The position numbers were made by a program, and so were the translations under genes. The notes beneath the pieces are model-generated. The model was given only the letters and a program-made list of their open reading frames with translations. It did no database searches and was not told the DNA's origin. Source: Arcobacter sp. CECT 8986 (lineage in GTDB: Bacteria; Campylobacterota; Campylobacteria; Campylobacterales; Arcobacteraceae). From it: DNA of 64,000 nt. The DNA lies in assembly GCF_004116725.1 (NCBI RefSeq), contig NZ_PDKG01000001.1:434001-498000 (forward strand), in the 5' to 3' direction. Positions within the stretch are counted from its first letter, which is position 1; each line of letters opens with the position of its first letter. Positions 23,495 to 42,313 of this stretch are shown here, one piece after another.

Positions 23495-24061
23495 ATGAAA
23501 AAAGTGATTGCAGATGAATTCCAAGCACACCTTGAAACAATAAATAATGTAATAAATAATATGCAAGAAAAAGTAGAAGCTGCATCACAACTTGCAGTAG
23601 ATACTTTAAAAAATGGAAACAAAATTTTATTATGTGGAAATGGTGGGAGTGCAGCAGATGCACAACACATTGCAGCAGAATTAACAGGAAGATATAAAAC
23701 AGAAAGAAGAGGACTTCCAGGAATTGCACTAACAACAGATACAAGTGCCTTAACTGCAATTGGAAATGACTATGGATATGATAGAGTATTTGATAGACAA
23801 GTTGAAGCATTAGCAAATAAAGGTGATTTAGTAATAGGAATTAGTACAAGTGGAAATAGTAAAAATGTATTAAGTGCTTTAAATCTAGCAAAAGAGCTTG
23901 GTTGTAAAACTGTTGGATTAACAGGAAGAGATGGTGGAGCTATGAATGAAGCTTGTGATGTAAATCTGGTAGTTCCTTCAAATGACACACCAAGAATTCA
24001 AGAAATGCATATTTTAATTGGTCATACTATTTGTCAAATTATAGATAATGAACTAAGTTAA
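23495..24061 (+). CDS. gmhA: Sedoheptulose-7-phosphate isomerase
   Basis: 188 residues with a single SIS domain: [23 protein letters not shown] (phosphate-binding loop), [11 protein letters not shown], and the C-terminal [16 protein letters not shown] metal/active-site helix with HxxxH. GmhA makes D-glycero-D-manno-heptose 7-phosphate, first step to the heptose donor used by WaaC and WaaF. It is on the plus strand and overlaps the end of waaF by 4 bases, stop against stop. The remaining heptose genes (hldE, hldD, gmhB) are not in the window. Confidence 0.96.
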
Positions 24062-24996
24062 TTACCTATAACGTTTAAAACATCTTTAGCTGTTATTAAT
24101 TTCATACAGTTATGATGTTTTAAAGGACATACCCTTTTCATACATGGAGCACAATCTAAATTTTTTGTAATAATATTCTCATTTGGATTATTCCATTGAT
24201 TTGTCTCTTTAAATCTTGTAGGTCCAAAAATAGCAGCTGTTTTTACTTTAAATGCAGCAGCAACATGCATAGGACCAGAATCATTTGTAATAAATATATC
24301 AAGCCCTGCTATTTTTTCAATCAATTCAGGAATTGTTGTTTTTCCTGCTAAATTTTGGTAATTTGTCACACCATTTGAAATAAGTTCTTTTTCTATATCT
24401 TTTGCAATATCAGTTTCCCCTGGACCTCCAAATATTACAATATCATGTGTTTTTGACATTTTTATTGCAACTTTAGCAAACTCATTTGGATACCATCTTT
24501 TAGCACTTCCATATGTAGCACCAGGATTTATTCCAAGTGTATTTTTACCATATGAAAAAGGTTTAAAATGCAAAGATAAATCACCAGCTTTATTATCTAA
24601 ATTTAACACATAATTTACAAAATCGTTATATCTTAAAACCTGATGTATTTGCTGTTTTTCTAATCTTCTATAATTATACTTTTTTTTAGCATTTACAAAA
24701 AACATCATAAATTTAGAAGATAGACTTCTTCTAAATGAAATTGCTAAATCAACTTTACCTATTTGTTTAGCTAATTTATATAAATTTTTATATCTATTAC
24801 CTTGTTTTTTTGTATTATCAACTATTATTTTTTCTATATTTTTAAAATTTCCTAACGCTTGAGTTGAAACAAATGAGCCCAAAAGCGTTATCTTTGCATC
24901 TGGATATGTTTTTATTATATTCTCAATTGCAGGTGTTGTCATAATTGCATCACCTAGCCATGTTGGTATCTCTATAAATATCTTCTCAATTTTCAT
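24058..24996 (-). CDS. waaF: ADP-heptose:LPS heptosyltransferase II
   Basis: 312 residues, GT9 family. N-terminal [15 protein letters not shown], the [15 protein letters not shown] donor-binding segment, [13 protein letters not shown], and [14 protein letters not shown] with a Cys-rich tail ([16 protein letters not shown]) as usual for WaaF. It adds the second L-glycero-D-manno-heptose to the inner core. With waaC at 42 kb it marks the ends of an LPS locus in the same fashion as Campylobacter. It overlaps the end of the upstream glycosidase-like gene by 11 bases. Confidence 0.94.
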
Positions 24997-26044
24997 TTAA
25001 TATCTCTTTAAATTTATAAAACTGTGGTAACTTCACTATTTTTCCATCTCTATTATCAACTAATCCATAACCTGGTGCTATTAATTGATGCCAATATACT
25101 CTTCTTATTTTTCTACTATTTTTAGCAATATTTATATATTCGTTCATATAGTTTGTATAAAGTTCATTTGATACACACTCTTTTTCACTAGTGGGTGCAT
25201 ATGGAGCTGTATTTGAAATTGGCCAATTAACTTCTGTAATATAAATTTCATTATTTACTTTAGAAGATAATTTACACAAACAGTATAATAAATCAATCTT
25301 ATTTTTAGTATCAAAGAAACCATATTGTGTATTTGTAGGTTTTCCTCTTCTATCAACATAAAGTAATGCACTTAATTTATCATATTTAATATTATAAAAA
25401 TTAAACATTGCTCTTACGTTATAGTAATATTCAAAATCTATTACACTAGGTCCTAATAGTTTTAAATCTTTATATTTTTCATCTCTTAAATCTTGTGCAA
25501 CTTTATAAAAACCAAGATACTCTTGAACTCCAAAAAATCCCCATTTTGCTCTATTTATTGTAGTTGCTATTTGATACTCAAAAACAAAAGAACAAAATTT
25601 TGAAAATATCAAATCTAAATCTTTTTTCAAAAGTTCTTTATTTTCTATATGTTCTCTATCTTGCATAATATTAAGCAAAATATTTTTATTTGAAGTTTTA
25701 TTAAAACTCTTCGCAAACTCAACATACGAATCGATATTTTCAATATCACTTAAAGGTAATCGAATTATTAGATTTTGAACATTTAGCTCATCAACTAACT
25801 CTTGCTGTATATTTCCTTTATCTAAATTAACACCAATTCCAATAAAATTTTTATTTCTAACAGTTTGATTTCCTTTAAAAAGTTTCATCAAAACAATCGA
25901 AATAGGTAAAATAACAATAGCAGAAAAAAACATAATCACATAATCAAATATGTATTTTTTTCTCATCTTTTTTTTGTAAGATTTATCTTTTATAACACTT
26001 GGTTGGTCTGAATACTTATCCCATACAAATGGTGATTTACTCAT
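24986..26044 (-). CDS. Membrane-anchored glycosidase-like TIM-barrel protein
   Basis: 352 residues. Cytoplasmic basic N-terminus, one membrane segment (about 31-53), then a periplasmic domain resembling clan GH-A glycosidases: it has an ITEVNWP strand (269-275) like the nucleophile strand (E271) of that clan, and a FEYQIATTINRAKWGF segment (155-170) where the acid/base NEP motif would sit but with TTINR instead. Catalysis is therefore doubtful; it may bind or process a glycan intermediate. The start at 26044 is chosen because AAGG is well placed and the longer form would overlap the upstream gene. Located among LPS genes. Function inferred only loosely. Confidence 0.6.
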   Translation of the reverse strand: MSKSPFVWDKYSDQPSVIKDKSYKKKMRKKYIFDYVIMFFSAIVILPISIVLMKLFKGNQTVRNKNFIGIGVNLDKGNIQQELVDELNVQNLIIRLPLSDIENIDSYVEFAKSFNKTSNKNILLNIMQDREHIENKELLKKDLDLIFSKFCSFVFEYQIATTINRAKWGFFGVQEYLGFYKVAQDLRDEKYKDLKLLGPSVIDFEYYYNVRAMFNFYNIKYDKLSALLYVDRRGKPTNTQYGFFDTKNKIDLLYCLCKLSSKVNNEIYITEVNWPISNTAPYAPTSEKECVSNELYTNYMNEYINIAKNSRKIRRVYWHQLIAPGYGLVDNRDGKIVKLPQFYKFKEILNEN

Positions 26045-26045
26045 A

Positions 26046-27596
26046 TTATAACCTTGTAAAAGGACGTTCACCTAATTGGGCTCTTTTTACATCCTTTTTG
26101 TACATCACCATAAATTTTTCCCATTGTCTTTTAATTTTATATTTTGTATATAGCCTTGAATTTCTATATAACCAAAACTTAAATCCCATTCTTTTCGCAC
26201 CTAATCCATCAACAATTATAATTTTATATTTTCCTTCTTGAACTTCAGGACAAAATAGATTTGTCAAACTTGTATCAACAAATAGTATTTCATTATCTTC
26301 TAAATATTTTTTTAATTCATCCAATAAAACTTTTTGTTCATCAAGTGATAAAATTTTATTTGCAACCATATATCTAAAAGATTTTGCAGGAGTATTATCA
26401 TAATTCAAAACTCTATCAAAAACAAGAGCTTTTCCTATATTTGTCTTTATATATCCATAACAATTAGTAAGATGAGACAAATCTTTTTGTCTATTTTTTA
26501 AATAATTCATATAGATATACTCTAATTTATTTTGGTCGTTATGTTCACCTTTTGAAAATACGCTTTTAATAACTTTAGTATTATCTTCAGGATGTAAATA
26601 ACATGCTCTTTCTCCACCTTTTGCAATCAATAAATCATCATTTATTTGATATAAAAACTCATCAGATAAAGCAATTCCAACTCTTCTTGATATTTTTAAT
26701 AATACGTTTTGACAAAAAGACAAATCAAGCCCTGTATTTACATAAGTATAAACTATTGAAGGCTTTTGCAAATATATTTTAAAATTTGCTTTTCTATATT
26801 TTTTTATATCTCTTTTTTTTAGCTCATCTTTTCTTTCTAAAATTATTTTAGCTTTTGCATCTAAATGAACCATCCAATAAACAGTTGGTATATAATTTAA
26901 AATATTTTTCCACTTATCTCTTAATTTTGTTTTCTTATCTAAAAAAGAGATATTTTCTAATAAATAATCATTAAAAAATCTATCTATAAATACTATTTTT
27001 TTCTTAACTAATGTATTAAAAACTAAATATGGATAATATAATAAACCAGCAAGAATAACTAACATATAGTGAATATCATCATGTTGGTCTTTTTCTGGTT
27101 TTTTACCTAGTTTCTTCTTTAACAAATATTTATTTATTGGATAAGTTACATTATAAATAATAGATCTTCTTACTATTTTTTTAAATCTTTTAAACATTAA
27201 ACTTTTTTCTTTTGGGTTAAATGTATTTGTAAGAAGAGTTGTCTTCCCTACTCCATCAGGACCAATAATAGGAAAAATTTTATATTCTTTGTATTTTAAA
27301 ACTTTTTTTCTATAATCTAAAATAATCTTATTTTCTACATTTTCCAATAATATTTTTATTTTTTTATCTTCACTATCTGAGTAAATTATCACTTCAATTT
27401 CATCATACTCTTCTCTAATAATTGAAAAACAGTATAGATTTTTTGAACATAATTTAAAAACTATTTTTAATAAACTATTTAATCTATCTTCTGTAATAGA
27501 AAATTTAACAGTGTTATTTTCATATTTATAAATAGAAAAATTTTTCTTTGCAAGTTTAGTTAATAAATTTTGAGTAAATTCTTCAATATCAATCAT
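26046..27596 (-). CDS. Fusion: thymidylate-kinase-like P-loop domain + YrbL-type kinase-fold domain
   Basis: 516 residues with three parts. Residues 1-105: unrecognised alpha/beta domain. Residues 106-305: P-loop kinase of thymidylate-kinase type with GPDGVGKTT (112-120) and the DR motif (205-206). Residues 312-516: a YrbL-family domain (PhoP-regulated YrbL, protein-kinase-like fold) with KGGERACYLHPED, K344, D441-x4-N446 and IVDGLG (D463). YrbL domains occur twice more nearby as separate proteins. I infer phosphorylation of a sugar, lipid or LPS component; the reaction is unknown. It overlaps the upstream GT9 gene by 8 bases and is followed by the glycosidase-like gene after one base. Confidence 0.75.
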   Translation of the reverse strand: MIDIEEFTQNLLTKLAKKNFSIYKYENNTVKFSITEDRLNSLLKIVFKLCSKNLYCFSIIREEYDEIEVIIYSDSEDKKIKILLENVENKIILDYRKKVLKYKEYKIFPIIGPDGVGKTTLLTNTFNPKEKSLMFKRFKKIVRRSIIYNVTYPINKYLLKKKLGKKPEKDQHDDIHYMLVILAGLLYYPYLVFNTLVKKKIVFIDRFFNDYLLENISFLDKKTKLRDKWKNILNYIPTVYWMVHLDAKAKIILERKDELKKRDIKKYRKANFKIYLQKPSIVYTYVNTGLDLSFCQNVLLKISRRVGIALSDEFLYQINDDLLIAKGGERACYLHPEDNTKVIKSVFSKGEHNDQNKLEYIYMNYLKNRQKDLSHLTNCYGYIKTNIGKALVFDRVLNYDNTPAKSFRYMVANKILSLDEQKVLLDELKKYLEDNEILFVDTSLTNLFCPEVQEGKYKIIIVDGLGAKRMGFKFWLYRNSRLYTKYKIKRQWEKFMVMYKKDVKRAQLGERPFTRL

Positions 27597-28554
27597 TTAT
27601 TATCTCTTTTAATCTATTTTCAATTTCTAAGTATTTCTCTTTTGAATAATCTAAAGAAAGCATAAAATTGTTTTGATTTTTAGTTTCACTTACAGTTGCC
27701 CATCTTTTAGAACTTGCAAATAAGTTATCACCAAAAAATGAAATTGTTTTTGTATTTACACAACCAGCTAAATGCATAGGGCCAGTTGAAGTACTTATAA
27801 AAAGTTCAAATTGACTCAATAGTTTACAAAAATCAATAATTGCACCAACTGATTCATAAAAAACTGCATCAAAATCTACTTTTGAGATAATTTCATCTTT
27901 TACTTTTAAATCGTCAGGTCCAAATGTAAAAACAACTTGAACATTATCTTTAAGGGATGCTGTTTTAGCCAATTTAATATAATCATCAATTGTTAAATTA
28001 CCCTCACTACTTCCACCAAAACCAGGATGAAAAGCAACAATTTTTTTAGACTCATCAATATTAAAATCATTTCTAAATTTTTTGATTTGTTCGCTGCCAT
28101 CAACATTTAAAACAGGCTTTGAGAACTCTAAATTAATATCTTTAAATAGTTTTGTTGCTAAATCTAAATTATATTGCCACTCAGTTTTTAAAACTTGACT
28201 TCTTCTTTGTTTAACTCTTTTATTAAAAAAAAGTTGAGCTATTTTAGTTGCAGGTGCTACTCTTTTTTTTATTTTGCTTTTAAATAAAAGTTTACCAAGT
28301 TTAGTATCAATATAAGCACTAATACTTGCATCAAATTTTCTTTGTTTTATTTCATCTAATGTAATATCTAAATTATTTTTATCAAATAAAATAACATCAT
28401 CAATAAAATCTATATTTTTTGCAAAATCAAAATTTATCTTACTTACTAATGCAGTAATTTTTGTTTGGGGATATTGTGTTTTAATAGCTTTAAAAAGAGG
28501 TAAAGTCACAACAAAATCTCCAATTTTGTCATGTCTAGAAATCAATAAATTCAT
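27589..28554 (-). CDS. GT9 heptosyltransferase-family protein
   Basis: 321 residues. ISRHDKIGDFVVTLPLFKAIKTQYP at the N-terminus, AFHPGFGGSSEGNLTIDDYIKLAK, and LISTSTGPMHLAGCVNTKTISFFG are the GT9 motifs. Compared with waaF the donor segment is GGSSEGN rather than GSAKRWYP, so it may be a different heptosyl- or related transferase. The start ATG at 28554 overlaps the upstream stop as TGATG; an in-frame TTG one codon earlier is less likely. Acceptor probably the LPS core. Confidence 0.88.
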   Translation of the reverse strand: MNLLISRHDKIGDFVVTLPLFKAIKTQYPQTKITALVSKINFDFAKNIDFIDDVILFDKNNLDITLDEIKQRKFDASISAYIDTKLGKLLFKSKIKKRVAPATKIAQLFFNKRVKQRRSQVLKTEWQYNLDLATKLFKDINLEFSKPVLNVDGSEQIKKFRNDFNIDESKKIVAFHPGFGGSSEGNLTIDDYIKLAKTASLKDNVQVVFTFGPDDLKVKDEIISKVDFDAVFYESVGAIIDFCKLLSQFELFISTSTGPMHLAGCVNTKTISFFGDNLFASSKRWATVSETKNQNNFMLSLDYSKEKYLEIENRLKEIIND

Positions 28555-29300
28555 CAATTTTTACCTCTTATTTTTCTTTTAAACTCCACAAAACCTTTTA
28601 ATTTTTTATCACACTGTTTTAAAATATCAATAGCTTTATTTTCATCAACATTTGCAAGTTTGGCATACTCTTTTGCAATAATTAGTAAACTATCTTCGTC
28701 AAGCCAAAGTTTTGCAAAATTATCAAGGCCTGTGTATAAATCAATAGTTCTAAATTGCATTCTATTTATATCTACAACAGAAAATTCATATCCACTATTA
28801 GTTTTTGCAACTAAAATATTACCAGCAGAATAGTCTTTATGATATACACCATTTTGATGAAGATTATATGTGAATTTTACGAACCCTTTGATTATTTTTT
28901 CTCTGTCTTCAAAATCTAAATGTCTTAATGGCTCTCTTATTGTATATTCGTAATTATATTTTTCACTTATAAAAAAACTCTTTTTAAATAAAAAGTTATG
29001 ATAAAACTCAATATAACCAATTGGTTTTGGAGTATTTATTCCTAACTCTATTAATTTAATAGCATTTTCATAAGATTTTTTTGCTTTTGAATCTCTAAAA
29101 TAAGCATATGCAATTTGGTTTATTATATTAGGAACTTTGAAAGCTTTTACTACTGTTTTTATTCCCTTATATTCAATTACTTTAAGTTCATTTCTTGCTT
29201 TATGAATTGTATTTGAGTTCTCTTCAAAAAACTCTTTTATATTTATCAAAAATTCTTTTATATTATTATAATTACTATTTAGTTTATACTTAATACTCAA
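28554..29300 (-). CDS. WaaP/InaA-type lipopolysaccharide kinase
   Basis: 248 residues with the protein-kinase-like fold of the Kdo/WaaP family: catalytic loop HKDYSAGN (H154, D156, N161) and metal aspartate in VVDINRM (D177), with an N-terminal lobe carrying KTVVKAFK. These cytoplasmic enzymes phosphorylate heptose or Kdo in the LPS core. The start is TTG at 29300: an in-frame stop lies 12 bases further upstream and no early ATG exists. The TGATG overlap with the next GT9 gene suggests that the product of one feeds the other. Confidence 0.83.
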   Translation of the reverse strand: MSIKYKLNSNYNNIKEFLINIKEFFEENSNTIHKARNELKVIEYKGIKTVVKAFKVPNIINQIAYAYFRDSKAKKSYENAIKLIELGINTPKPIGYIEFYHNFLFKKSFFISEKYNYEYTIREPLRHLDFEDREKIIKGFVKFTYNLHQNGVYHKDYSAGNILVAKTNSGYEFSVVDINRMQFRTIDLYTGLDNFAKLWLDEDSLLIIAKEYAKLANVDENKAIDILKQCDKKLKGFVEFKRKIRGKN

Positions 29301-29431: not shown

Positions 29432-30025
29432 CTATTCAAGATATTTAAATAAACAACTATTTTCTTTTATTATTCTTTTTTTCTTAAGCGAGTTAATAAA
29501 ACCAGTCCAACTTTTATCAATCTTTTTCTTAATAAAGTAATCACATATATAAAAAAATGGATTATAATTACTATGAGATAATCCATCAATTATAACTAAT
29601 CTGCTTTTATCAATATTTTGCTGATACATAATATTTACCGTATTTAAGTCTTTTACAAATATTTTGTTTTCATAAATATATTTTTTTAATAAAGGAACTA
29701 ATTTTAATAAATTTTCAATTTCCTCAATATTATTACTATTCTTTAAATATTTATCTACTTCCATAGATATAGTTTCATCATTATCTCTAATTAATTCGAA
29801 AACTTCTGCTTTTCCTAGATTTGTATCTACTTCACCATAATATTTTGAAAGAAAATCAAAAGGAATATCTTTTTCAATAAGTTTTTTATAATATTTTAAT
29901 TCTCTCTTTGTCTCTTTATTCTCTCTTAAATCTATTTTTAAACATTTAGTTTTATCATTTGGATGCTTATAACAAACTCTATTTGTACCTTTATTTATAT
30001 ATAAACTATCATCCAAAAAAATCAT
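29432..30025 (-). CDS. YrbL-family kinase-fold protein (copy 2)
   Basis: 197 residues. NKGTNRVCYKHPNDKTKCLKID (N-lobe, K30), GEVDTNLGKAEVFELI, catalytic-loop KDLNTVN (D126, N131), and IIDGLS (D147) match the YrbL family and retain all residues expected of an active kinase fold. The substrate is unknown; position suggests an LPS-related sugar or lipid. Chosen ATG at 30025, 5 bases after AGGAG; a TTG one codon earlier is the alternative. The 131 bases beyond its stop hold no recognisable gene or terminator. Confidence 0.75.
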   Translation of the reverse strand: MIFLDDSLYINKGTNRVCYKHPNDKTKCLKIDLRENKETKRELKYYKKLIEKDIPFDFLSKYYGEVDTNLGKAEVFELIRDNDETISMEVDKYLKNSNNIEEIENLLKLVPLLKKYIYENKIFVKDLNTVNIMYQQNIDKSRLVIIDGLSHSNYNPFFYICDYFIKKKIDKSWTGFINSLKKKRIIKENSCLFKYLE

Positions 30026-30129
30026 CAATACTCCTATTTATTGTCAAACCGCTATTTTAACATAATAATTTTTAAGGATATAAACAGAACTATTTTTATA
30101 AAATTGATAAAAATAAAATTTGGGTAGAA

Positions 30130-31209: not shown

Positions 31210-31224
31210 GTATCTACTTTTTAA
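31199..31224. terminator. Bidirectional terminator between GT9 and YrbL-type genes
   Basis: TTAAAAAGTA (31199-31208) pairs perfectly with TACTTTTTAA (31215-31224) around a 6-nt loop and contains both convergent stop codons. Confidence 0.7.
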
Positions 31225-31777
31225 TATATTTATTTATAAACTTATCCCATCTTCGTCTTATTCTTCTTCTAGCGAAATATGGGATTTTATTTGGTAATGT
31301 AAAATGAGAAACATCACCTAATCCATCAATTAAAACTAATTCAAATTTATCTTCACTTCTTTTTCTTAAAAGAATATTTTTAGGCATCATTCCATAATTA
31401 AAAATAATTTTATTTCTTAAAAAGTAATCTTTATACTCTTCTAGCTCTTTTTTATAAAAATCTACTCCATTCTCTTTTATATAATGAGCAAAAGTTTTAG
31501 AAACCTCTCCATTATAATCTCTAACAACTTCAATTATAAAACCTTCACCATGATTAGTCTGAACTTCGCCATAAAACTTAGGAAGATGTTGCCAATCATT
31601 CATTCCTTTTTTTATTAACTCATTATAGTAATCAATCTCTTTTTGAGATTGTTTATTTTTCTCTCTTTTATTATTTTTATAAGTTACTTTTACTGCTTTA
31701 TTTTTATCTTCTGGGTGTAAATAGCAAGCTCTTTCACTACCTTTTCCTATAAAGTCTTCTTCTTTTAAAATAAGCAC
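31214..31777 (-). CDS. YrbL-family kinase-fold protein (copy 3, catalytic loop without Asp)
   Basis: 187 residues. GKGSERACYLHPEDKNKAVKVTY (10-33) and GEVQTNHGEGFIIEVV match E. coli YrbL closely. The catalytic loop reads NYGMMPKN with G129 where kinases have Asp and N134 kept; LIDGLGD (D151) is intact. E. coli YrbL, as I recall it, also lacks that Asp, so this may be the ancestral form rather than a decay. The start is a GTG at 31777, 5 bases after AGGAG that lies within the end of the upstream GT4 gene. Function unknown. Confidence 0.77.
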   Translation of the reverse strand: MLILKEEDFIGKGSERACYLHPEDKNKAVKVTYKNNKREKNKQSQKEIDYYNELIKKGMNDWQHLPKFYGEVQTNHGEGFIIEVVRDYNGEVSKTFAHYIKENGVDFYKKELEEYKDYFLRNKIIFNYGMMPKNILLRKRSEDKFELVLIDGLGDVSHFTLPNKIPYFARRRIRRRWDKFINKYIKK

Positions 31778-37257: not shown

Positions 37258-39263
37258 CTATTTCCTTTTTGTTTTTTATATTCACTATCTATTAAATATT
37301 GAGATATTGCAAGACATGCTTTATAATACTCTAACATAGGTTCACCCTTTTGACTTAAGGAATCAAATCTTTTTACTTGTGTTTTTGTATTTACAACCAA
37401 TGAACCATTTAATCCATAATGTTTTACATTTTGATTAAATAAATTTTTTCCTATTGATATATAATTTTGATCTTTTAAAGTTAAATTATATAAAGTTGGG
37501 AATATATCCTTATGTGAACCAGCTAAAGTTGTATCAATATTTAATTTTTTTCTTAAATCCTTAGGAATATAAAAATATAAAGGAATATTTTTTGAATTTA
37601 ATATTTTTTTATCATCATATTTCATAATACCATCAATAGTATTATTATCAGCAGTTATAGCAATAATAGTATTATCTTTAAATTTAGTCTTTTTAAACTC
37701 ATCTAAAAATTTTCCAATTTCATCAATTGCATAAGCATATGAAGCAAATCTTCTTTTTGCTAAATCTAAATCTCCAGTAATATGTTTTTTCAAATTATCA
37801 CTAAATATTAAACTATTTCTTTTATAATCTTCTGGCACACTATAAGGAGGATGATTATTTGTAGTTAAAGCAACGATAAATTGTTTTTTATTAGATGTCT
37901 CTAATTTTTTTAAGATATAAGATAATAAATATTGGTCATAAATTCCCCAAGGATGAAAGTATAAATCTTTATTTTTACTTTTATCTTCTAAACTATTATA
38001 AATATCCATTTTTCCATCAATATTATCATATCCTTGATATTTAACAAATTGCCCAATACTTCTCCATGTCAAGTCTCCACCATACATAAAACTTGTTTCA
38101 TATCCATTTTCTTTGTATAAAAATGCAGGAGTATATGTAAAAGGTGTTTGCTTATAAATTGATTGAGAAAAAGCAAAAGAAGCAGGTCTATGAGGTATAT
38201 TTAAAAGTAATGATTCTAAACTTGATATTGTTCCGTCACCTGCAGATATAAAATTATTAAATAATATATCTTCATCAAAATGTTTTTTTAATGCACCTAA
38301 AATATCAAATTTATCACTTTGATATTTTAAAATTGGTTTTCCAAAACTTTCAACCATTAAAACAATAACATTATACTCTTTATCATCAAGTTTTACTGTT
38401 TTATTAGTAATATTTGATAAAAGATTTTCTTTATTTATATTTGGTGTACCTTTATAAAGTTGAAAAGCTTTTTCAATATTATTTTTATATCCAGTAGCTT
38501 CTAATAAATCATATTTTCTACTCAAATATTTTTTTCTTGCACCATACGCACTTGTGAAGGCTCTAAATCCATTTTGAGATATTTTATTGATAAATTCATT
38601 CGTTGAAACATTTGGTATCATCTTACCTAAAGGATACATTCCTAATGTTCCTCTAATTGCCAAAAAGTTTAATATAAAAAATAGTAAAAAAATAACAGCT
38701 GAATATTTCAAACCAAAAAATGATTTAATTAAACTATCTTCTTTTGAAAATATTTTTTTGATTATAATAAATAAAGAGATAATATAAACAAAGAATATTG
38801 ATAAAATCATAACAACATTATAATTTTCCCAAAATGTTTCCATCAATGCTTTTGTATCATCATCCATAAGACCAAAAAATATAATATTTATGTGCTCTTT
38901 AAAATATGAGTAAAACCCAAAATCAGCACATAATAGAAGACTTACGACAACATAACACACAAATAAATATAAGACTAAAAATTTCTCAAAATATTTTAAT
39001 AAAATCTCTTTTTTTGTGTAATATAAAATTATTAAAAGAATAGTAGGCAAAGTTTGAATGTAACCAATAACAGTTAAATCAAGTCTAAACCCTAAGAAAA
39101 AGGCTTTAAAAACATCTAAATAGTATCCACTTAGACTATCAAGAGGTGAATAATAATTAAAAAATACTAATCTAAAAATAGACATAAAAACTAAAAAAAC
39201 AATGTGTACAAATAAAAGTTTTTTAAATATATTAAGTACACGAGATATCATGTTTTGATTCAT
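37254..39263 (-). CDS. LTA synthase / sulfatase-fold phosphoglycerol or pEtN transferase
   Basis: 669 residues. Five membrane helices (about residues 14-200) then a periplasmic sulfatase-fold domain: MVESFG (E305), catalytic nucleophile in AGDGTISSLES (T345), TTNNHPPY (H471), ITADNN (D539-N540) and AGSHKDIFPT (H584). In LtaS, EptA and OpgB the metal-binding pair at 539-540 is Asp-His; here it is Asp-Asn. It probably decorates LPS or a periplasmic glucan with phosphoglycerol or phosphoethanolamine, and DgkA nearby could recycle the diacylglycerol such a reaction releases. The exact group transferred is an inference. Overlaps neighbours by 4 bases on both ends. Confidence 0.83.
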   Translation of the reverse strand: MNQNMISRVLNIFKKLLFVHIVFLVFMSIFRLVFFNYYSPLDSLSGYYLDVFKAFFLGFRLDLTVIGYIQTLPTILLIILYYTKKEILLKYFEKFLVLYLFVCYVVVSLLLCADFGFYSYFKEHINIIFFGLMDDDTKALMETFWENYNVVMILSIFFVYIISLFIIIKKIFSKEDSLIKSFFGLKYSAVIFLLFFILNFLAIRGTLGMYPLGKMIPNVSTNEFINKISQNGFRAFTSAYGARKKYLSRKYDLLEATGYKNNIEKAFQLYKGTPNINKENLLSNITNKTVKLDDKEYNVIVLMVESFGKPILKYQSDKFDILGALKKHFDEDILFNNFISAGDGTISSLESLLLNIPHRPASFAFSQSIYKQTPFTYTPAFLYKENGYETSFMYGGDLTWRSIGQFVKYQGYDNIDGKMDIYNSLEDKSKNKDLYFHPWGIYDQYLLSYILKKLETSNKKQFIVALTTNNHPPYSVPEDYKRNSLIFSDNLKKHITGDLDLAKRRFASYAYAIDEIGKFLDEFKKTKFKDNTIIAITADNNTIDGIMKYDDKKILNSKNIPLYFYIPKDLRKKLNIDTTLAGSHKDIFPTLYNLTLKDQNYISIGKNLFNQNVKHYGLNGSLVVNTKTQVKRFDSLSQKGEPMLEYYKACLAISQYLIDSEYKKQKGNR

Positions 39264-40045
39264 TTATCATTTTCCTTTAAATTATATAAGATTTCAAACA
39301 GTTTAAAAAATAAAATAACATCATTTCCTAGAAATTTTCTAATAAATTTAACTTTACTTAATTTTATCAATAAATAAAATTTACTTGCAAGTTTTTGAAG
39401 TCTATTTTTAAAATCATAATTTTTAGTATTTTCTATATATTTATCAATAAATTCAATATAGTTAACTTCAACTTTTGCTCTTATTTTTGTCAAAGACAAT
39501 AAAAAAAGTAAAAAATCTCGAAACTGTAAAGTTTTTAAATCAATAGAACTATCAAAGCTATCTTCTAAATCAATGGAATAAACTTTTTCATCTTTAAAAG
39601 TTAGATTTCTTGCTTGTGCTCCACCATGGTATTGGTTATTATTATGGATAAAACAAATTGCATCAATAGCTTTTGATACATAAAAATCTATTATTTCTTG
39701 TGTAGCATCTTTTTTTCGTATATATGAATTTATATTTTTACCACTATCTTCTAATACAAAAAAATCACTATTTTTAAAAACTACATTTGGAACGGGAATA
39801 TTCAATTTTTTAAACTCTTCTAATTTTGTACACTCAAACTCAAGAGCTTGTATTGCACTTTTTTCTTCAACAGGAGTTATTAATTCTAATTTAAAAAGTT
39901 TATAATAGATTTTATGAGAAAGTGAAGATTTTGTTGGTCTTGCTTTTTTTAACCAATATTTTTTTTCATCAAAAAGAAAAGAACCAATTTCTGAAGAACT
40001 ACTTTTATATTCGTTTAAAACAAACTCTTCAAAGCTCTTATGCAT
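39260..40045 (-). CDS. Kinase-fold protein, LPS kinase-like, catalytic loop HGGAQARN
   Basis: 261 residues of protein-kinase-like fold. N-lobe YWLKKARPTKSS, then ALEFECTKLEEFKKLNIPVPNVVF and FFVLEDSG, a catalytic loop QYHGGAQARN (H140 to N147) lacking the usual Asp (G142), and SIDLEDSFD with the metal Asp D159. It resembles bacterial LPS kinase/BUD32-like proteins. With Gly in place of Asp, activity may use another base or be absent. The ATG sits inside the end of dgkA (8-base overlap), and it precedes the LtaS-like gene by overlap, so the three are cotranscribed. Confidence 0.68.
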   Translation of the reverse strand: MHKSFEEFVLNEYKSSSSEIGSFLFDEKKYWLKKARPTKSSLSHKIYYKLFKLELITPVEEKSAIQALEFECTKLEEFKKLNIPVPNVVFKNSDFFVLEDSGKNINSYIRKKDATQEIIDFYVSKAIDAICFIHNNNQYHGGAQARNLTFKDEKVYSIDLEDSFDSSIDLKTLQFRDFLLFLLSLTKIRAKVEVNYIEFIDKYIENTKNYDFKNRLQKLASKFYLLIKLSKVKFIRKFLGNDVILFFKLFEILYNLKENDK

Positions 40046-40394
40046 ATATTATCACCATAATCCAGCAAATAACATGTAAAATAATAGAAAACATAACAGC
40101 AGTAGAACCAATATCTTTTGCAGTTTTAGCTAAAGGAGCAAACTCTTTAGTTACTAAATCAACAACATTTTCAATTGAAGAGTTTAATAACTCAACAATT
40201 AGTACTAAAATACCAGTAACTAAAAGAATTAACTTACTAGTTAAAGATGCATCAATAAGTATTATTCCTACAATTATAAATATCGCAAAAATCAACTCAA
40301 GTTTAAAAGAGCTTTCTGTTTTTAATACATGTACCAATCCACTTAGAGCATATTTACTGTTTTTAAAAAGATTATATTTTGGTTTATTATTCAT
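40038..40394 (-). CDS. dgkA: Diacylglycerol kinase
   Basis: About 118 residues with three membrane helices: KNSKYALSGLVHVLKTESSFKLELIFA, then VELLNSSIENVVDLVTKEFAPLAKTAKDIGSTAVMFSI. The ExxNTAIE-like segment is ELLNSSIENVVD and the KDxGSAAV-like segment is KDIGSTAV, both active-site motifs of DgkA. It phosphorylates diacylglycerol at the inner membrane, recycling lipid released by glycan-modifying transferases such as its neighbour. I prefer the ATG at 40394; an in-frame ATG at 40409 is possible. It overlaps the acyltransferase gene end. Confidence 0.92.
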   Translation of the reverse strand: MNNKPKYNLFKNSKYALSGLVHVLKTESSFKLELIFAIFIIVGIILIDASLTSKLILLVTGILVLIVELLNSSIENVVDLVTKEFAPLAKTAKDIGSTAVMFSIILHVICWIMVIIYA

Positions 40395-41304
40395 GTTTGT
40401 TTCTATCATATAAATTTTTATAATATTTTTTCCATCTTTTATGTTGCCAAAACCATAAATGAGGATATTCTAAAATCTGTTTTTCTATTATATCTGATTG
40501 CATTTGAGTTAATTCTTTTATCTTATCATCTGTTTTAAAATCAAGTTCTTTACAATCAATCATTTCACCAACTTTTAATGTATAATCTCTAAAATCATTC
40601 ATTACACAGAATATTGGGATAATTACAGCATCAAGTTTTAATGCCAATCTTGATGTGGCATCAGTTGCCATTACTTTTTTATTAAAAAATTCAATTTCGA
40701 TACCATTTTTCATATGTTGGTCAATTACTAAAGCAACTGCTTTTTTCTCTTTAAATGCTTTTAGCATTCCTTTTGCAGCAGATTTTTTTTCTAACATAGT
40801 AATATTATTTCTATCTCTTGCTTTTTCATACATATCATTAATATATGGATTATCCATTTTTCTATTTACAACTGCTAATTTCCCATATTTCAATGCAACA
40901 TATGGTAATGCAATTTCCCAGCCACCATAATGAGCTGTAATATAAATAATCTTTCTATTTTCTTTTATTGCATCTAAAATAACTTGTTCATTTTCTATAT
41001 TTGCTTTACTAATTAATTTCTCTTTTGAAATATGCTGGTTTTCAACAAACTCATACAAATTAAAAAGTAAAGATTTATAAGAAGTAAAAATTATCTCTTC
41101 TTTTTTTTCTTTGCTTATAGAATCACCATAAACTAAGTCCAAATTCACATTTGCAATATGTAAATGTTCTTTATTAAATCTATTAGCTAAATGTGCAATA
41201 AATATTAATATTTGTTTTGTAATAAATTTAGGACTTACTAATATTATAAATTTAAAGATGTTATATAAAATATATCTATAATAATCCTTAATTTTTCTCT
41301 TCAT
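40387..41304 (-). CDS. htrB: Lipid A biosynthesis acyltransferase (LpxL/HtrB family)
   Basis: 305 residues. One membrane segment near the N-terminus (about 13-35) and the catalytic HYGGWE (H-x4-E) motif with surrounding IYITAHYGGWEIALP; VIDQHMKNGIEIEFFNKKVMATDATSRLALK is the usual second motif. It adds a secondary acyl chain to lipid A. Directly after waaC, overlapping it by 17 bases, as in Campylobacter LOS loci where htrB follows waaC. Confidence 0.93.
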   Translation of the reverse strand: MKRKIKDYYRYILYNIFKFIILVSPKFITKQILIFIAHLANRFNKEHLHIANVNLDLVYGDSISKEKKEEIIFTSYKSLLFNLYEFVENQHISKEKLISKANIENEQVILDAIKENRKIIYITAHYGGWEIALPYVALKYGKLAVVNRKMDNPYINDMYEKARDRNNITMLEKKSAAKGMLKAFKEKKAVALVIDQHMKNGIEIEFFNKKVMATDATSRLALKLDAVIIPIFCVMNDFRDYTLKVGEMIDCKELDFKTDDKIKELTQMQSDIIEKQILEYPHLWFWQHKRWKKYYKNLYDRNKHE

Positions 41305-42313
41305 AAAGAATTTCCTTTGCTACTTTGACAATACTACTTTCATCTATATCTTTAATTGAGAAATCATTCCTATCCAACTTATATGGATCAACATTAGAAT
41401 TTGACTCAATAATTTTATTAATTTTTGTTTCATATGTATTTCTATAACCTGGTGTATTACCAAATAGAGTTATAGAAGGAATATTTAAAGCCCATGCCAT
41501 ATGTGTTGGACCAGTGTCATTTCCAATTAATAAATCTGTTTTTGAAACAAGTGCTTTTAAACTATTTAAATCTATTTTAGGAAGCATTTTTGCATTAGTA
41601 GTATTTTTTTCTAAATAATTTGCAATATCTTTTTCTACTTCACTTCCCCAAGCTATTAAAAAATTTTCATTTATAGAATTTACTATTTTAACAAATTTTT
41701 CTTTAGAATACATCTTACTAGGCCAACTTGCACCAACTATTAATAAAATATTCTTTTTTGTATTACTTAAATAGTCATATATTCTTTTATCTTCATCTTT
41801 AAAAAATAAAAAAGGCTCTTTATTTAAAATATCATCTTTTGTAATATTAAAATCAAATGGTTCTGACATTATTTTTGCATTTCTTTCTATTACATTTGAA
41901 TCATAAGAAATAGAAACTTTTTGTTTGTAAAAATTACTTGCAAACTTCTCTCTAATTGAATCTTTTGAAAAGCCAACAACATATTTCCCTAAAAGTTTAG
42001 AGACAATTGCAGATTTTATTAACCCTTGAGCATCAATAATTAAGTCATAATTATTTTTAGAATATATTCTTGTTAATTTAATTTGAGAAAATAGTTCTTT
42101 TTTATCTTTTTTTATACTTTTAAGATTTAGTTCATAGATATTATCAATATGTGGATTATTTTCTAAAACTTTACTAAAAGCTTTTTCAACAAACCAATCA
42201 ATTTGAATATTTGGATAATGTTTTTTTATAAATTGTAAAGCAATCATAGAGTGAATAATATCACCCATTGCAGATAGCTTTACAATGGCTATTTTGTCTA
42301 ACTTTTTAATCAT
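41288..42313 (-). CDS. waaC: ADP-heptose:LPS heptosyltransferase I
   Basis: 341 residues, GT9. IVKLSAMGDIIHSMIALQFIKKHYPNIQIDWFVEKAF is the WaaC N-terminal signature, with LLIVGASWPSKMYSKEKFVKI and LLIGNDTGPTHMAWALNIPSITLFGNTPGYRN in the C-terminal half. It adds the first heptose onto Kdo. It opens the LPS locus that closes with waaF near 24 kb. The start overlaps the end of the ppx/gppA gene (ATGA), and the acyltransferase gene starts inside its own end. Confidence 0.95.
   Translation of the reverse strand: MIKKLDKIAIVKLSAMGDIIHSMIALQFIKKHYPNIQIDWFVEKAFSKVLENNPHIDNIYELNLKSIKKDKKELFSQIKLTRIYSKNNYDLIIDAQGLIKSAIVSKLLGKYVVGFSKDSIREKFASNFYKQKVSISYDSNVIERNAKIMSEPFDFNITKDDILNKEPFLFFKDEDKRIYDYLSNTKKNILLIVGASWPSKMYSKEKFVKIVNSINENFLIAWGSEVEKDIANYLEKNTTNAKMLPKIDLNSLKALVSKTDLLIGNDTGPTHMAWALNIPSITLFGNTPGYRNTYETKINKIIESNSNVDPYKLDRNDFSIKDIDESSIVKVAKEILYEEKN

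Follow-up and report, generated by a model that had tools for sequence, protein, structure and literature searches.

The window analysed here, a 64,000-nucleotide stretch of the genome of Arcobacter sp. CECT 8986, carries a gene for a 516-amino-acid protein in which two kinases of different fold are joined (Table 1). Its reading frame contains no internal stop codon, and the chain is composed of a short N-domain (residues 1-103), a P-loop kinase (residues 104-310) and a YrbL-family PKL domain (residues 318-497). The surrounding genes form an LOS core cluster, the layout of which was likened to the genes of the C. jejuni LOS locus (PMC7248181). The cluster also holds an O-antigen ligase and a sulfatase-fold protein, the latter probably a phosphoethanolamine transferase. 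Five PKL-type genes, one of them below the cut-off, are located between positions 26046 and 40045. The 361-aa protein encoded directly downstream of the fusion gave no convincing Pfam or NCBIfam match and looks like a membrane-anchored glycosidase-type protein.

Table 1. Features of the fusion gene and of the surrounding cluster (positions in the window)
Feature	Position	Strand	Basis or remark
Two-kinase fusion ORF	26046..27596	-	ATG start, 516 codons
N-domain, residues 1-103	27288..27596	-	Alignment and model of longer relatives
Thymidylate-kinase-fold P-loop kinase domain, residues 104-303	26688..27287	-	AlphaFold2 model, structure alignment
Walker A GPDGVGKTT, residues 112-120	27237..27263	-	Sequence
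DR motif, residues 205-206	26979..26984	-	Sequence, alignment
Lid motif RKDEL, residues 255-259	26820..26834	-	R-K invariant in relatives from four phyla
Linker / fusion junction, residues 304-317	26646..26687	-	Where the split genes of relatives end and begin
YrbL-PhoP_reg (PF10707) PKL domain, residues 318-497; K344, D441, N446, D463	26106..26645	-	Pfam, model
361-aa protein, directly downstream	24986..26071	-	26-base overlap with fusion
GT9 heptosyltransferase-like protein, directly upstream	27589..28557	-	Pfam; 8-base overlap with fusion; conserved neighbour
Kdo/WaaP-family LPS kinase (PKL-type), two genes upstream	28554..29300	-	Pfam; conserved neighbour
YrbL (PKL-type)	29432-30028		
YrbL (PKL-type)	31214-31777		
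Weak RIO match (PKL-type)	39260-40045		Below cut-off
GmhA-like isomerase, cluster edge	23495-24061	+	Named by reading the sequence, not by profile search
GT9 heptosyltransferase, cluster edge	24058-24996	-	
Lipid A acyltransferase and GT9 heptosyltransferase (WaaC-like), other cluster edge	40387..42313	-	

Domains of the fusion protein

The C-terminal domain matches YrbL-PhoP_reg (PF10707) with an E-value of 1.9e-37 (129.2 bits, cut-off 31.5). The AlphaFold2 model of the whole protein was built from 22 sequences and reached a pLDDT of 86.2 and a pTM of 0.61, so that the mutual placement of the domains is unsure. Structure alignments of this model cover residues from approximately 100 onward. 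Residues 303-508 align to PKL kinases (PRPK, Z 13.9, rmsd 4.9; OspG, Z 12.6) and residues 104-309 to thymidylate kinases (4rzx, Z 13.4, rmsd 3.2, 181 residues). The Pfam match and the model alignments bear out the view of the initial annotation that two different kinase folds share one chain; the Walker A and DR motifs that it named are present, as is the full set of YrbL catalytic residues, and the N-domain that it could not recognise is real and has its counterpart, by alignment, at the N-terminus of longer relatives, for which an NTase fold is predicted. The domain families are known already; a fusion of YrbL with a P-loop kinase was described in none of the papers found in the open-licence PMC literature.

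YrbL of E. coli, a PhoP-controlled gene product, is a stand-alone protein of 210 aa. The fused domain lies far above the PF10707 cut-off, but it scores only 104.3 bits against the NCBIfam equivalog PRK10345 (NF007671; cut-off 227), and it has Asp at the catalytic position where the E. coli protein has Ser. Canonical YrbL may be catalytically atypical. Among the other proteins compared, the YrbL of the 31214-31777 type has Gly at the PKL catalytic Asp position, E. coli YrbL (L099:501-1133) being the one with Ser, and Asp is kept in the YrbL at 29432-30028. No biochemical role for YrbL was found in the literature searched (open-licence PMC papers).

The description of the central domain as thymidylate-kinase-like holds for the fold only; Walker A and the DR motif are shared with thymidylate kinases, the family profile and the dTMP-site motif are not. 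The 516-aa protein gave no match to Thymidylate_kin (PF02223) at E-values up to 1 and no Pfam match above cut-off outside the YrbL domain, while some plasmid relatives described below exceed the PF02223 cut-off (31.0 and 28.4 against 27). A motif scan for the AxRxxH-type dTMP-site motif, expected approximately 20 residues before DR, found it absent in 12 of 12 P-loop domains; the Tmk of the host genome, encoded separately (G000:C1:215162-215695), carries it as ADRAEH. A role of the fusion as the dTMP kinase of the cell was rejected on account of this separate Tmk; the protein is predicted not to be a true dTMP kinase, and it is no equivalog of E. coli YrbL. Matches of the P-loop part to NB-ARC, AAA and RsgA in Pfam fell below cut-off and were restricted to the P-loop. 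A profile search of PDB sequences returned mostly short P-loop matches (RecA, ABC proteins) and no family. The P-loop family is rare, being found in 11 of the 399 genomes of the order; one further match in the phylum search (G424) proved by sequence to be a Lon protease and was discarded as a P-loop false positive.

A longer N-domain with a GDYDF motif is found in two fusion proteins of another family (G384 and G192, 645-651 aa) and in a 440-aa protein (G016). The model of the G384 N-domain (nine sequences, pLDDT 80) matches nucleotidyltransferases in most alignments (JHP933, Z 8.7; ANT(2''), Z 7.9), with a best Foldseek E-value of only 1.7e-3. The Arcobacter N-domain aligns to the first half of this longer domain, at an identity of only 11%, and the GDYDF (catalytic DxD) motif is absent, NTVKF standing in its place. 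On these grounds the N-domain is likely to be a shortened or eroded nucleotidyltransferase-fold domain.

Conservation and origin of the fusion

The same 516-aa fusion is present in G132 (98% identity) and in Arcobacter sp. CECT 8985 (G187, 87% identity), the latter being the only close relative returned by a scan of genome contigs. Among the six genomes of the genus, the fusion occurs in three and separate genes in one; in the remaining two, G399 (L029, L032) and G400 (L030, L033, L036), the search found YrbL genes but no P-loop protein. Comparison with G187 (Nei-Gojobori) gave dN/dS values of 0.44 (N-domain), 0.14 (P-loop domain) and 0.07 (YrbL domain); purifying selection acts on both kinase halves. 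The fusion thus occurs in three species rather than in a single strain, and together with the low dN/dS of both kinase halves this rules out a frameshift, sequencing or assembly artefact joining two genes.

In five relatives (G165, G363, G375, G235 and G120) the two halves are separate, co-directional neighbouring genes that occupy the same place in the operon without any change of order, namely Kdo/WaaP-like kinase, GT9, P-loop gene, YrbL gene, 361-aa gene and GT9. The slot with GT9, Kdo/WaaP-like kinase and 361-aa gene is kept in seven related genomes. In G363 and G375 the P-loop and YrbL genes are divided by a stop codon followed immediately by an in-frame GTG; in G165, G235 and G120 they overlap out of frame. 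In a tree of 40 YrbL domains the fusion falls inside a clade of separate genes (99/94). Since five relatives keep the halves apart in the same slot, two of them split by a stop only, the fusion is derived, having arisen by the joining of two adjacent genes of the operon. The same tree cannot be explained with fewer than two changes in fusion state; the other change is that of G192 and G384 (family f16), where a fusion arose independently.

Adjacent genes of a compact operon can fuse by chance, and the two parts might accordingly be LOS-cluster kinases with independent substrates that were joined only because their genes abut, with no coupling of their reactions. Such a neutral history would suit the G363 and G375 genes, which are in frame with only a stop between them, and the overlaps of a few bases throughout the cluster. 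It would also suit G154 and G057 (genus g2), in which YrbL is fused not to the P-loop gene but to the gene on its other side, the homologue of the 361-aa gene (549 aa; L056:397-2046, L057:397-2046). A second, independent fusion in another family speaks against it, as do two observations from other phyla given in the next section, and we regard it as rather unlikely. In G016 the P-loop gene overlaps by one base a YrbL gene of a different subfamily.

Relatives in other phyla

A tblastn search with the relatives against 72,556 plasmid records recovered the P-loop family in eight records of five genera (four Leisingera, Agrobacterium, Legionella adelaidensis, Hymenobacter and Streptomyces); phage records gave no match. 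The plasmid and Campylobacterota P-loop proteins belong to the same family by hhalign (probability 98.2, E 3.4e-14), and G-x-D-G-x-G-K, DR and R-K are invariant over 12 aligned P-loop domains. The plasmid proteins of Agrobacterium, Leisingera, Legionella and Hymenobacter are hypothetical proteins with NTase and Tmk-like regions. They share with the Arcobacter protein the P-loop family, the polysaccharide locus and a PKL partner nearby or fused, but their NTase region is longer and bears a DxD motif, and their PKL partner is APH-like rather than YrbL. Nothing relevant on Tmk-like proteins in exopolysaccharide loci was found in the literature searched (open-licence PMC papers).

A PKL phosphotransferase is encoded in the same polysaccharide locus as the P-loop protein in all eight plasmid records (in Leisingera, by locus reading in two records and by similarity in the other two). 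Six of the loci were inspected, and all are polysaccharide loci; five contain an annotated phosphotransferase gene, which is the immediate neighbour in Legionella, lies two genes off in Streptomyces and in both Leisingera loci, and five genes off in Agrobacterium. In Hymenobacter the PKL (HGDFTPWN) and the P-loop kinase share one 823-aa chain (L082:7201-9672), in which the PKL comes first, followed by a nucleotidyltransferase-like region and a Tmk-like domain. The PKLs of Agrobacterium, Leisingera and Legionella narrowly pass the APH cut-off; the Hymenobacter region has no Pfam match and was assigned by its motif and by a reverse search. This search, for which the Agrobacterium PKL served as query, returned six records, all within the eight that carry the P-loop protein. 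No such PKL was found by annotation or motif in ten control loci that have a DUF1972 glycosyltransferase and no P-loop protein, one of these loci being unannotated and judged by motif alone; negatives of the motif scan are soft, because it overlooked the PKLs of Agrobacterium and Streptomyces, found only on reading the sequences. The contrast between five of five genera and none of ten controls has a probability of 1 in 3003 (exact test, calculated by hand), for controls that are few, were picked via one glycosyltransferase family and come in five of ten cases from Bacillota or Actinomycetota.

That P-loop and PKL genes occur together in the polysaccharide loci of other phyla, and that Hymenobacter has a PKL-NTase-TMK fusion of reversed order, are the two observations that count against a purely neutral joining of the Arcobacter genes.

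Proposed function

The best explanation, which we hold tentatively and at somewhat less than an even chance, is that the LOS core cluster encodes, in this fusion protein, a bifunctional kinase for surface glycans whose two domains act jointly; the exact order of steps is less certain still. In its favour stand the two kinase folds with their conserved catalytic residues, the low dN/dS of both kinase halves, the conserved operon slot, the independent fusions, the overlapping P-loop and YrbL genes of G016 and the pairing with PKL kinases in other phyla. Acting first, the PKL domain would place a phosphate on a hydroxyl group of a precursor or of an LOS-core sugar, in the way of WaaP, KdkA and WbdD. 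As part of the same step the P-loop domain would then carry out another phosphoryl transfer, most plausibly onto the new phosphate, to yield a diphosphate. In characterised thymidylate and NMP kinases the acceptor is a phosphate monoester that the DR arginine holds in place, and the diphosphate step is proposed for this reason. Sequential phosphorylation, one of two suggestions in the initial annotation, has become better founded, since in several lineages the two modules are neighbours or form one chain and an analogous pair recurs in polysaccharide loci of other phyla, the reaction itself being one that we infer. Against joint action, other lineages of the same family have YrbL without a P-loop protein.

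Two known systems are similar in part. WaaP/KdkA (PF06293) are PKL kinases of LPS core clusters, represented here by the Kdo/WaaP-family gene, but they are single-domain proteins, and the fused domain is a member of PF10707 rather than of PF06293. The bifunctional O-antigen kinase/methyltransferase WbdD (PMC3482155) is, by description, likewise a glycan-acting PKL kinase fused to a second enzyme that uses the phosphate just made; this partner, however, is a methyltransferase rather than a P-loop kinase.

The other suggestion, regulation of one domain by the other, found no specific support. In a wider form, the targets of the YrbL domain would be proteins, either the P-loop domain or glycosyltransferases, and their phosphorylation would tune LOS synthesis. 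The modelled PKL fold is close to the protein kinases PRPK and OspG, as such a switch would have it, but sugars are the substrates of many PKL kinases from LPS clusters, and the YrbL papers found deal with PhoP regulation or screens and, in the text consulted, name no protein substrate; this is improbable. A role in precursor supply is also improbable: a phosphorylated sugar or polyol would come from the PKL domain, and the P-loop domain, together with the NTase where that is whole, would help to make an activated nucleotide donor for a glycosyltransferase of the cluster. The whole NTase-fold domain of G384, G192 and G016, the DxD-bearing N-region of the plasmid relatives and the dTDP-rhamnose genes of the Leisingera loci would fit, whereas the Arcobacter proteins are without most of the NTase domain and its motif, the Streptomyces relative has no NTase domain and the dTMP-site motif is missing.

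The bifunctional-kinase reading can be extended, more hesitantly, to the other phyla. The P-loop protein and a PKL may form an undescribed two-enzyme surface-glycan module, present in at least four phyla and repeatedly fused, that would carry out consecutive phosphorylations (e.g. glycan-OH to phosphate to diphosphate), with the Arcobacter fusion as its most compact form. The pairs need not share the same chemistry, since the PKL partner is YrbL in Campylobacterota and APH-like elsewhere. Through its fusion and operon pairing with a P-loop kinase in an LOS cluster, YrbL gains a concrete pathway and a reaction that can be tested; the comparable pairs in other phyla suggest that a general phosphorylation step of surface polysaccharides has been overlooked.

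Among the strains with the fusion, the LOS locus varies in the part that separates the Kdo/WaaP-like kinase from the YrbL of the 29432 type: G132 has five extra genes there (L016:11193-15751), G187 two (L017:4872-7360) and the window none.
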